From Candidatus Zixiibacteriota bacterium (GTDB lineage: Bacteria > Zixibacteria > MSB-5A5 > GN15 > PGXB01), in assembly GCA_900498245.1 (NCBI GenBank), contig LS998015.1:3234101-3246666 (forward strand): 12,566 bases of DNA, given 5' to 3'. Shown one piece after another: positions 8,311 through 12,317 of this stretch (position 1 is its first letter; each line of letters opens with the position of its first letter). The notes beneath the pieces were generated by a model. It searched no databases and was not told the origin of the DNA. It saw nothing but the letters and a program-made list of their open reading frames with translations. The position numbers and the translations under genes were made by a program.

Positions 8311-9771
8311 CTATTTCAACAATATCATCTTCTTCGAAGCGGTATAGTCGCCGGCTTGAAGGCGGTAGAAATATACGCCGGTGGCAACCGCTTTGCCGGC
8401 ATCATCGCGGCCATCCCATTCGATACGGTACTCCCCGGCCGGTCTGGTTTCGTTCACCAATGTCCGTATTTTCTGTCCCAGCATGTTGAAAAGATCGATG
8501 GTCACATGGGATCGTTTCGGGACACTGAATTCTATCACCGTGACGGGATTGAACGGATTGGGGTAGTTCTGACTTAGGGCAAACTCGCCGGGCAGATTAT
8601 TTTCCCGATCGGATGCAACAGCGGTTGTCGATTTCCTGGTCCATTGGGCCAGATAGGAACATTCTTTACCGCCGGCGGAGGTGAAAACCCCGCCGACAAG
8701 CAGATTTTCGTTATATACCGCCATGGCATAAACATCGTCATTGACACCGGAGCCCAGCGGGGACCAGGAGGCGCCATCCCACGAAGCTATCCGATTGGCG
8801 CTACCGTCAGGAGTATTAGTGAAAGTGCCGCCCGCATACAATTTATTATCAAATCCCTGCAGAGCGTGGACGCCCGCCGTCATGCCCGAATCGGGGAGCG
8901 ACCATTGAATTCCGTCCCATACCGCCACCCCGGCCGCATTTATAGAATTATTCAGGGTGAACCAGCCGCCGACTCTGAGGTAATTATCGAAGACATAAAG
9001 TGAATAAACCATGGCATCCAGACCGAAGCCAATCGTTGACCATGCTGTTCCATTCCACGAGGCTATCCCCATGGCGTCGACATTGCCGGCCTTTACAAAC
9101 CAGCCCCCGGCTATGAGTTTATGATCAAAGATAGTGAAAGCATAGACATCCCCGATAACACTCTCACTCACGGCGGACCATGAAGTGCCGTTCCATGATG
9201 CAATTCCGGTGGCGTCGATATTTCCGGCCCTGGTGAATACGCCTCCGGCTATCAATTTGCCATTATAGGTTGCCAGTGCGGATACGACGCTATAGGAATA
9301 AGGGCCATCCCCGATACCTGTCCCGAGCGGTGACCAGTCATTACCGTCCCACACGGCAATTCAACTGGCGCTGGAAGCGCCCGCTGTAGTGAACACTCCC
9401 CCCGCAACCAACTTGTTGTTATAGACGGTGAGGGCGGTGACATAAGCGTTTGTCCCTGATCCGAGTGGCGACCAGTTGGCGCCGTCCCAGGATGCGATAT
9501 GGTTGGCCGCTATTTCACCAACGGCGGTAAAATCGCCCCCGACAATCAGTTTGCCGTCAAAGACTATCATCGCCAAAACCTGGCCGTTCAGCCCCTGGCT
9601 TCCGGGTGAAATGGTGGAATCCCAATAGATATCATCCGGGCTCTCGGCGAAGACTTTCGCATTATTATTTCCAGGTATTCTTTTAGCTTGACTGGGAAAG
9701 CCGGCCACGGCTGACACACATATTAGTATCAGAAATATCCCTTTCAGGGTGAGGATTAATAATTTTGACAT
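8311..9771 (-). pseudogene. Secreted seven-repeat propeller with sorting domain, interrupted by TGA
   Basis: One frame runs from ATG 9769-9771 (AGGAGG 5 nt upstream) to TAG 8311-8313, broken only by TGA at 9361-9363, codon 137. The frame is unchanged across it, and the repeat phase continues. The N-terminus is a signal peptide (KGIFLILICVSAVAG). Seven blades of about 45-55 residues follow, each with 'L-x-x-GG-x-F' (for example LIVGGDF, LIAGGVF, LYAGGTF), and six with an IASWDG-like strand and W(S)PLGSG. The last about 90 residues begin SQNYPNPFNPVTVIEFSVP and end in YTASKKMILLK, the FlgD-like C-terminal domain found on secreted, often type-IX-sorted, proteins of FCB bacteria. The TGA stands where other repeats have Gly, Arg or His before IA-x-W, so a single base change from GGA or CGA explains it. 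If read literally, the cell makes a 136-residue stub and perhaps a separate piece from GTG 9354. Sequencing error remains possible. Confidence 0.8.
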
Positions 9772-11028: not shown

Positions 11029-12024
11029 TTACGGCACGAGGTAATCGGGTGAACGAGGCAGTTCCACCGCCGCCTTGATCGATGACACATTCCGTACCAA
11101 CGCCAGGATCGATTGCACCACCCGTTCGAAGCCGATGCCGCATCCCGACGATTGACCCTGCCCGTGCTTGAGAACCTCGAAATACCATCCGAACTGCGCC
11201 GGATCGACATTTCGTTCCACCAGATGGTCATACATGTAAGATTCTTCGAATTGTTTCCGACAAACCTCGACTTTCCCTTCCCGGACCGCACCGCCGACCG
11301 ACTCGCCGACGTGCGGCAGGAGCAGGTCGCAACAGAGAGTTTCGCCGTTGTCGCGTTTCATCGAGAAGAACTTGATGACACCCCCCTGTTTCGGTTTGGG
11401 ATCGGAGGGATAATGGGTGACAAAGGTCGGCAGGGAACCGAGAATAGCGCAGATTGCGAGTTCCTCGGCGCTTCCGAGATCATCATTCATCTCGATCTCG
11501 AATTTGTTTCTTTTGAGCAGCGTAACGGCATCGGCATATTTAATCCGATTGAAGGGCATCTCGGTGTAGCGCTCCAATTCCCGGGATTTGCTGATGTCGG
11601 CCGCCGCCCGATACATTTTCTGAATCAGCGACTCAATCAGGTTCATGAGGCCGTCCAGTTCGAAATCGCGTCCCTCGAATTCGATCAGGGTGAATTCGCA
11701 GAGATGCCGGTTGGAAACCTTCCGCTCCTGGCGGAACGAAGGGCCGATGGTGTATACACGGTTGTGAGTCTGTGTAAAGGCCTCGAGATAAAGTTGCCCG
11801 GTCTGGCGCAGGAACATGTTCAGTTCGCCGCCGTTTTCATTGAACATCGTGACCGGCATGGCGTTGGGGAACCACTCGCATGAGCCGGTGGCTCCCGTGA
11901 TACAGGGAACGGAAATTTCCATGAAGGAGTTCTCTTCAAACCAGTCCCGGGCCGCCGCCAGGAGTTTGGAGCGAAGATAAGTAGTATCCTTGAACGCTCC
12001 TTGAATGACATCCAAATGACGCAT
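11029..12024 (-). CDS. AsnRS-like catalytic-domain protein, possible asparagine synthetase
   Basis: This 331-residue class II synthetase core resembles asparaginyl-tRNA synthetase but lacks its roughly 100-residue N-terminal OB-fold anticodon-binding domain. Visible elements are the motif 1 region FMEISVPCIT (34-43), the AsnRS-like TGQLYLEAFTQTHNRVYTIGP (75-95), motif 2 FRQERKVSNRHLCEFTLIEF (97-116), ESVGGAVRE (241-249), motif 3 GCGIGFERV (294-302) and a terminal LPRSPDYL. Family knowledge: archaeal proteins of this build (for example in Pyrococcus abyssi) make asparagine from aspartate and ammonia via aspartyl-AMP, and full-length AsnRS is around 430-470 residues. A metabolic asparagine synthetase is therefore the better guess than a tRNA ligase, but substrate cannot be read from sequence. 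The ATG at 12022-12024 has GGAGG 8 nt upstream, so the short N-terminus is real and not a mis-called start. It is preceded by an attenuator-like leader. Confidence 0.85.
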   Translation of the reverse strand: MRHLDVIQGAFKDTTYLRSKLLAAARDWFEENSFMEISVPCITGATGSCEWFPNAMPVTMFNENGGELNMFLRQTGQLYLEAFTQTHNRVYTIGPSFRQERKVSNRHLCEFTLIEFEGRDFELDGLMNLIESLIQKMYRAAADISKSRELERYTEMPFNRIKYADAVTLLKRNKFEIEMNDDLGSAEELAICAILGSLPTFVTHYPSDPKPKQGGVIKFFSMKRDNGETLCCDLLLPHVGESVGGAVREGKVEVCRKQFEESYMYDHLVERNVDPAQFGWYFEVLKHGQGQSSGCGIGFERVVQSILALVRNVSSIKAAVELPRSPDYLVP

Positions 12025-12027
12025 CGG

Positions 12028-12180
12028 TTAAACCTCCACCAATAACAGATTTAAAAAACGGCCACCCCTTTCGGGATGGCCGTTAATGCCAAAAAAGGAT
12101 GGCCCGGACGGAAAACCGTCACGGACCGGTAATTTTATGAAGTCCCGGTATTGTGCTTTCCTTGTTAATCTTTCGCCCAT
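12028..12180 (-). CDS. Possible 50-residue leader ORF before the AsnRS-like gene
   Basis: An ATG at 12178-12180 opens a 50-codon frame starting MGERLTRKAQYRDF and ending TAA 3 nt before the downstream ATG. It crosses the terminator hairpin, and its Asn codon 33 (AAC) lies in the base of the 5' arm. The best Shine-Dalgarno, AAGGAG, is 14 nt from the ATG, too far for efficient initiation, so translation is uncertain. Confidence 0.25.
   Translation of the reverse strand: MGERLTRKAQYRDFIKLPVRDGFPSGPSFFGINGHPERGGRFLNLLLVEV
12053..12084 (-). terminator. Strong intrinsic terminator just before the AsnRS-like gene
   Basis: The minus-strand transcript forms AACGGCCAUCCC, a GAAA tetraloop and GGGGUGGCCGUU: a 12-bp stem with one U-G pair. 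Counting the two Us that close the stem, it ends in six consecutive Us. The terminator lies about 28 nt upstream of the start codon and about 200 nt downstream of the promoter, which is the position of an attenuator or of the end of a small RNA. Confidence 0.85.
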
Positions 12181-12288
12181 AGGCGATTTATTCGCTCCTT
12201 TATTCTTTCAGGTACAAGATTATCGTCAAGCGCGGGCGCAAATCGGCCCGGTTTTTCTGCCCCTGATAACAATGCACCTTAAAGGTCT

Positions 12289-12317
12289 ATTATATCCTGT
12301 CAAAACAACCCCGTCAA
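12289..12317 (-). promoter_or_regulatory. Near-consensus sigma70 promoter
   Basis: In the minus sense TTGACG (12312-12317), a 17-bp spacer and TATAAT (12289-12294) make an almost perfect promoter. The bases upstream of the -35 (about 12318-12350) are AT-rich with T-tracts, like an UP element. Transcription should start near 12283 towards the AsnRS-like gene. Confidence 0.85.

Follow-up and report, generated by a model that had tools for sequence, protein, structure and literature searches.

A predicted transcription attenuator conserved upstream of a stand-alone AsnRS-like gene in Candidatus Zixibacteria and its probable coupling to leader translation

The window, by which the whole analysed stretch of 12,566 nucleotides is meant, belongs to a genome that consists of a single contig of 3.5 Mb and whose close relatives in a named collection are Candidatus Zixibacteria. 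On its minus strand it carries a gene for an AsnRS-like protein, and this gene is preceded by a promoter, a leader and an intrinsic terminator:

11029 to 12024, minus strand: gene for a stand-alone AsnRS-like catalytic domain (331 aa, PF00152) without the N-terminal anticodon-binding domain
12026 to 12040, minus strand: the gene's own Shine-Dalgarno region (GGTGGAGGTTTAACC), read from the sequence
12057 to 12084, minus strand: intrinsic terminator stem-loop AACGGCCATCCC-GAAA-GGGGTGGCCGTT with 12 pairs, its U-run extending to 12053
12097 to 12104, minus strand: upstream copy of GGCCATCC, absent as such in leader L003
12025 to 12288, minus strand: leader RNA, its start placed from the -10 box within a few nucleotides around 12283
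12289 to 12317, minus strand: promoter with -35 TTGACG (12317-12312), a spacer of 17 nt and -10 TATAAT (12294-12289), 11 of 12 positions matching the consensus

The gene product matches PF00152, the class II tRNA synthetase core, and its best solved relative is the AsnRS 1x54; the alignment begins at residue 134, and the N-terminal anticodon-binding domain is therefore missing. The class II motifs are intact, and the protein is very likely an active enzyme judging from the 93 residues that are invariant among 28 orthologues, including F97, R98 and E100 of motif 2. It scores below the cut-off of every NCBIfam equivalog, reaching 81 bits with the best asparagine synthetase A model (cut-off 368) and 181 of 414 with the AsnRS model. 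Enzymes of the AS-AR type are stand-alone, related to AsnRS and make asparagine (PMC9437257). The protein shares their hallmarks, an AsnRS-like catalytic domain with intact class II motifs and no anticodon-binding domain, and is probably an asparagine synthetase of this archaeal, AsnRS-related type. That it may form asparagine from aspartate and ammonia is suggested, only indirectly, by the absence of matches to the asnB (TIGR01536) and asnA (TIGR00669) models from the window's genome at the thresholds used. Within the order asnB is present in 48 of 79 genomes and asnA in none of the 79. In family f1 most genomes other than that of the window (G000) contain neither asnB nor the AsnRS-like gene.

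An earlier note on this DNA had proposed a near-consensus promoter, a leader of about 260 nt and a GAAA-capped 12-bp terminator ahead of the start codon, and all three are borne out. The promoter has the TTGACG-17-TATAAT form on the minus strand, and the stem at 12084-12057 is followed by the U-run and has the highest number of pairs among the terminator-like sites of the scanned region. The leader, folded over 266 nt, is more stable than all of 200 dinucleotide shuffles (z -4.2).

Orthologues of the AsnRS-like gene (E below 1e-60) are found in 28 of 132 Zixibacteria genomes, and in 21 of 80 within the order. When their upstream regions are compared, the succession of promoter, leader and terminator recurs in 18 of the 28, in several families, and once more as a displaced copy. 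In these 18 genomes the unit has a promoter-like site, with a TTGAC -35 element at the same position in nearly all leaders, and a start region resembling UUUUAGARACA; the leader measures about 200-360 nt, and its terminator precedes the ATG by 20-40 nt. Judging from this recurrence the predicted attenuator is real, conserved across several families of the phylum, and not a product of chance. Conservation in close relatives was the test to which the earlier note had submitted its own proposal, and the terminator passes it. Families f3 and f16 carry leaders of different sequence, L009 and L010 retain the unit in a decayed form, and the contig of L007 is too short to judge whether a leader is present. 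Of the loci in genus g27, L014 has an intact leader that inserted repeats have moved 440 nt farther from the gene, and L043 retains the terminator.

The leader terminators take the form GCC[AG][CT]C..loop..G[GA][TC]GGC followed by a U-run. The G[GA][TC]GG sequence is present in 17 of 17 leader terminators versus 5 of 50 other terminators at the same loci, two of these five being the displaced leader terminators of genus g27; a generic terminator of the phylum is thus ruled out. Matches to the terminator pattern occur in 43 of 129 scanned genomes, many of them away from the AsnRS-like gene. Nor are the arms conserved on account of an encoded peptide, because the frame that crosses the terminator differs between species. 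The arms GCC[AG][CT]C and G[GA][TC]GG[CT] (L002-L048) are kept across families far beyond the needs of a hairpin, and none of the explanations tested for this gave a positive result.

A T-box riboswitch of the asnA/asnS type controls asparagine genes through a leader terminator, an arrangement that the Zixibacteria leader shares. It is conceivable that the leader is a metabolite- or tRNA-binding RNA, either a riboswitch or a divergent T-box, in which asparagine, ammonia or uncharged tRNA-Asn selects between a terminator and an antiterminator fold. The asparagine metabolism of the gene, the stability of the leader fold and the conservation of both the RNA 5' start and the terminator arms would suit such a sensor, as would the UGGY in the terminator 3' arm, which could pair with the 3' end of tRNA-Asn (GCCA). 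However, Rfam returns no match in the window at the gathering score and no T-box there even at E up to 10, and the leaders of the relatives give none at the gathering score (20 loci) or at E up to 3 (16 loci). The stem I and T-box bulge of the T-box covariance model are recovered neither in the window nor in those leaders, in agreement with the absence of the T-box consensus stated in the earlier note. No tRNA gene lies in or near the leader in the window, and the single one in L013 is an unrelated tRNA-Leu. Unlike known aptamers, the pre-terminator leaders can hardly be aligned (median pairwise z 1.0), and RNAalifold on two MAFFT alignments gave the terminator as the only common structure of the whole leader, which is why no covariance model was built.

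The earlier note had further proposed that GGCCATCC is duplicated, and that both copies can pair with GGGTGGCC of the 3' arm in mutually exclusive folds. The duplication is present, at 12104-12097 and inside the terminator, but the exclusive folds are not conserved: over 18 leaders neither arm of the terminator finds better partners in the upstream leader than in shuffled leaders (mean z 0.0), and the closest relative, L003 (89% protein identity), has GGCCAATT in place of GGCCATCC, the second half of the duplicated element being absent. Likewise, the pairing between the Shine-Dalgarno sequence described below and the terminator 5' arm is good in about 7 leaders and not general (the ranks are bimodal). 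In contrast to T-box leaders, those of the Zixibacteria hence show neither a covariance-model match nor a conserved antiterminator pairing exclusive with the terminator; the feature that is conserved instead is a ribosome start site with an open frame. A sensor RNA of this sort is unlikely. What stands of the earlier proposal is a conserved attenuator of an asparagine-family gene that Rfam does not recognise as a T-box; there is no support for the view that the RNA itself specifically senses asparagine, ammonia or tRNA.

The conserved start site belongs to a short reading frame, ORF2, that runs through the terminator and that the earlier note had not noticed. In the window the translation-related features of the leader are the following:

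12028 to 12180, minus strand: ORF2, 50 codons from ATG to TAA in the frame scan, which crosses the terminator without a stop and leaves 3 nt to the gene's ATG
12101 to 12127, minus strand: strong predicted hairpin GGTCCGTGACGG-TTTT-CCGTCCGGGCC within ORF2, followed by ATCC and a T6 run
12165 to 12272, minus strand: ORF1, a weak candidate upstream frame with a TTG start, no good Shine-Dalgarno sequence and a TAA 13 nt after the ORF2 start
12174 to 12195, minus strand: region of a small predicted hairpin that presents the ORF2 start codon (CGCC-UAUG-GGCG)
12195 to 12201, minus strand: Shine-Dalgarno-like AAAGGAG for ORF2, about 14 nt from the start codon with the small hairpin between them

An alignment made from sequence alone shows NTGNNNNNTRR 40-60 nt before the terminator in most leaders, a pattern in which a start codon is followed 8 nt on by a stop of a different frame. 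To be scored as ORF2, a frame had to begin at an ATG or GTG with a Shine-Dalgarno pairing of -5 kcal/mol or better, and to stay free of stops up to the end of the U-run; dinucleotide shuffles of the pre-terminator leader served as control. Such a frame is found in 17 of 18 leaders versus 3.5 expected; with one leader per similarity cluster, 13 of 13 clusters are positive (P ~2e-10). The complements of the anti-Shine-Dalgarno sequence, used as controls, give 6 versus 4.9 and 5 versus 5.1 expected. Other codons put in place of ATG and GTG yield little or no excess (CTG 5 versus 2.0, ACG 0 versus 2.1, AAG 2 versus 2.8), clear enrichment being absent from six of the seven non-start codon sets. One scrambled control, UCACUCGAUCUCA, also scores high (15 of 18), probably by pairing with purine-rich stretches. 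Single shuffled leaders keep a frame of such length open with P 0.2-0.9 each, and the argument therefore rests on the whole set. Of the 18 automatically chosen starts, 11 are followed by an out-of-frame stop at exactly +8, every other offset occurring at most four times, and the spacing from start to terminator arm is 43-58 nt in 15 of 18 leaders. An ORF1 with a Shine-Dalgarno pairing of -4 or better is found in 10 of 18 leaders versus 3.4 expected; as a candidate frame it is less well supported on its own than ORF2, and better in the relatives than in the window.

The leader in the window is a weaker example, its Shine-Dalgarno sequence lying 14 nt from the ATG (-5.6 kcal/mol), with no stop at +8 and a start 100 nt from the terminator. 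Taken alone, its ORF2 is one of the weaker cases, with P 0.29 for an open frame, and the frame is identified as a candidate through its relatives. The hairpin at 12101 to 12127 and the T6 run (at 12096) behind it form a possible pause site; T-runs of four or more between ORF start and terminator are seen in 5 of the 15 listed leaders.

The surroundings of the ORF2 start also fold better than shuffles (Stouffer z -7.6), the Shine-Dalgarno sequence being mostly paired and the start codon often placed in a loop, and for part of the structure this hairpin could constrain the same bases as the ORF2 signal. A protein that binds the leader, for instance the AsnRS-like enzyme itself, and controls termination or the start of ORF2 would fit such a hairpin and has precedents of the thrS type. 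It is the presence of the hairpin that is conserved, however, not its sequence, and the AsnRS-like protein lacks the anticodon-binding domain; control by a bound protein is accordingly very improbable.

Reading frames with ribosome sites in a leader also bring to mind classical amino-acid attenuation of the trp/his type, where stalling at Asn codons of a leader peptide would favour an antiterminator. A few leaders do have Asn codons near the terminator (AAC at the arm in the window, INNNI in L041). Yet asparagine makes up 3.2% of ORF2 codons, the same as in other frames, and simple stalling at Asn codons is therefore unlikely. The 18 leaders contain neither an Asn-rich leader peptide nor a conserved alternative antiterminator stem, and ORF2 enters the terminator; amino-acid attenuators, by contrast, have more than 20 bp between the end of the leader peptide and the terminator (PMC4824070). 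An attenuator of this class has at best a slim chance.

Four leaders, L014, L049, L050 and L051, owe their place outside the discovery set to terminators that are distant or different in sequence. In L014 ORF1, whose stop is at +8, has 28 codons, as it does in L008, L011, L013 and L015; ORF2, with a Shine-Dalgarno pairing of -7.9, crosses the terminator and the inserted repeats in 175 open codons and ends in ATGA on the gene start (P 0.0135). In L049 an ATG preceded by GGAGG opens a frame of 208 codons that spans two terminators and stops 9 nt short of the gene (P 0.0005). The frame of L051 has 94 codons and likewise spans two terminators (P 0.04). L050 is weaker, with 42 codons and a poor Shine-Dalgarno sequence. 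As far as these predicted frames go, the leaders outside the discovery set show that the frame is kept and not the sequence.

The encoded peptide does not appear to be under selection. Between L049 and L051 the ORF2 codons differ by 17 non-synonymous versus 3 synonymous changes, and the differences between L002 and L003 fall on codon positions as 4, 7 and 8, with no clear selection at the protein level; a functional leader peptide is unsupported by these changes. Given an unconserved peptide and a frame across the terminator that varies among species, the product of ORF2 is unlikely to matter, and it would be the passage of ribosomes that does. The same data bear on the view that the unit yields an independent small RNA, or a small protein, ending at the terminator, with the AsnRS-like gene served by leakage or another promoter. 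Promoter and terminator are strong, no in silico result shows readthrough and ORF2 could be a small protein gene, but the peptide is not conserved, the unit stands directly before the AsnRS-like gene in 18 genomes and ORF2 reaches the gene start even where insertions widen the gap. An independent transcript of this kind is quite improbable.

The reading that we favour, at a probability of about 0.6, is translation-coupled attenuation in the manner of pyrBI, in which termination would be averted by ribosomes that translate the leader ORF. Comparison of sequences shows that promoter, terminator, initiation site and a frame open through the terminator are conserved. We infer that ORF2 is translated, that the terminator works and that ribosomes suppress it, the balance presumably being set by a signal such as charged tRNA, ribosome supply or polymerase pausing. 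Polymerase would start at about 12283 and produce a leader with ORF2, which in many relatives is preceded and overlapped by ORF1. Where no ribosome is close, the hairpin of the terminator inside ORF2 would form and transcription would stop before the AsnRS-like gene. A ribosome on ORF2 close behind the polymerase would keep the 5' arm open, transcription would go on, and the ribosome would finish at or near the start codon of the gene. The control point would be the ORF2 start, with Shine-Dalgarno sequence and start codon held in a hairpin. In most relatives the ORF1 stop lies 8 nt inside ORF2, and arriving ORF1 ribosomes could open the site and pass translation on. OFF would be the default state and coupling the switch, through pausing or through ribosomes coming from ORF1. 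If the ribosome itself is the antiterminator, the absence of a conserved alternative RNA pairing is to be expected, and if the act of translation matters rather than its product, so are the varied terminator frames and the unconserved peptide. Translation-coupled attenuation does not account for how strongly the sequence of the terminator arms is conserved.

Ribosomes close behind the polymerase are known to suppress intrinsic terminators, but E. coli terminators usually escape suppression when they lie less than 100 nt into a gene, where coupling has yet to be set up (PMC4824070; PMC7858274). The proposed mechanism therefore needs pausing or coupling from ORF1. A precedent is E. coli pyrBI, where ribosomes suppress a terminator contained in the 135-bp gene of the leader peptide (PMC4824070). 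The Zixibacteria leaders resemble pyrBI (PMC4824070; PMC3641672) in having an intrinsic terminator between the promoter and the first gene, spanned by a short leader frame with a ribosome site, and by inference in its suppression by a close ribosome. They differ in gene and phylum, and no U-rich pause tract was found to be conserved among them, T-runs being present in some. Nor is pyrBI known to have a second overlapping frame with a stop at +8 or a start codon in a hairpin. With the Salmonella mgtCBR leader (PMC3641672) they share two short leader ORFs, the translation of which decides on operon transcription, as is proposed here; the mgt ORFs, however, are separate, and mgtP has signal codons and acts via alternative stem-loops, whereas the Zixibacteria ORFs overlap and have no conserved alternative stems. 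The uORF attenuator of a Sinorhizobium meliloti DUF1127 gene (PMC12218461) differs in that it has no intrinsic terminator, probably depends on Rho and is turned on by poor translation.

Possibly, though we say so with some doubt, the leaders represent a new type of attenuator that controls an unusual asparagine enzyme phylum-wide: two overlapping frames, of which the first ends exactly 8 nt into the second, at the hairpin, would hand over ribosomes, and the terminator in the second frame would report translation capacity. Attenuators have, as far as we know, been studied almost only in cultured bacteria. The Zixibacteria leader would be a conserved and novel variation on a familiar style of control; it is absent from Rfam and occurs in several families of a phylum for which metagenomes are the main source. 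Searches for RNA structure are blind to a frame that stays open across a terminator; the test for a ribosome site and a frame open through a pre-gene terminator can be applied to any genome and may uncover more translation-sensing leaders. The leader also offers a route to ask which signal governs the AsnRS-derived asparagine enzymes of bacteria.

Several minor observations concern the surroundings of the unit. The UUUUAGARACA-like stretch at the presumed transcription start (12288-12270 in the window) is common to nearly all leaders; it may serve initiation, form the beginning of ORF1 in one group of leaders, or act as a binding site. In L009 and L010 the usual terminator has lost its U-run, and the upstream hairpin is followed by CTATTTTTTT in a terminator-like arrangement; judging from this arrangement, the attenuator seems to have been rebuilt there. 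The inserted repeats of genus g27 (CCCCTCGACTCCGCTCGGGG-like) lie between terminator and gene both in L014, about 440 nt before the gene, and in L043. About 400 nt upstream of the gene, L006, L009 and L010 share an element that starts with GGTTCCTCCAC and has a terminator (GTGCCG...CGGCA-TTTTTTT); no tRNA or tmRNA was found in it, and it is positioned upstream of the promoter in two different genera. Elsewhere in the window, at 8311-9354 on the minus strand, the C-terminal segment of the protein resembles by eye a type IX secretion sorting domain (PNPFNPVT...GVYFYRL).
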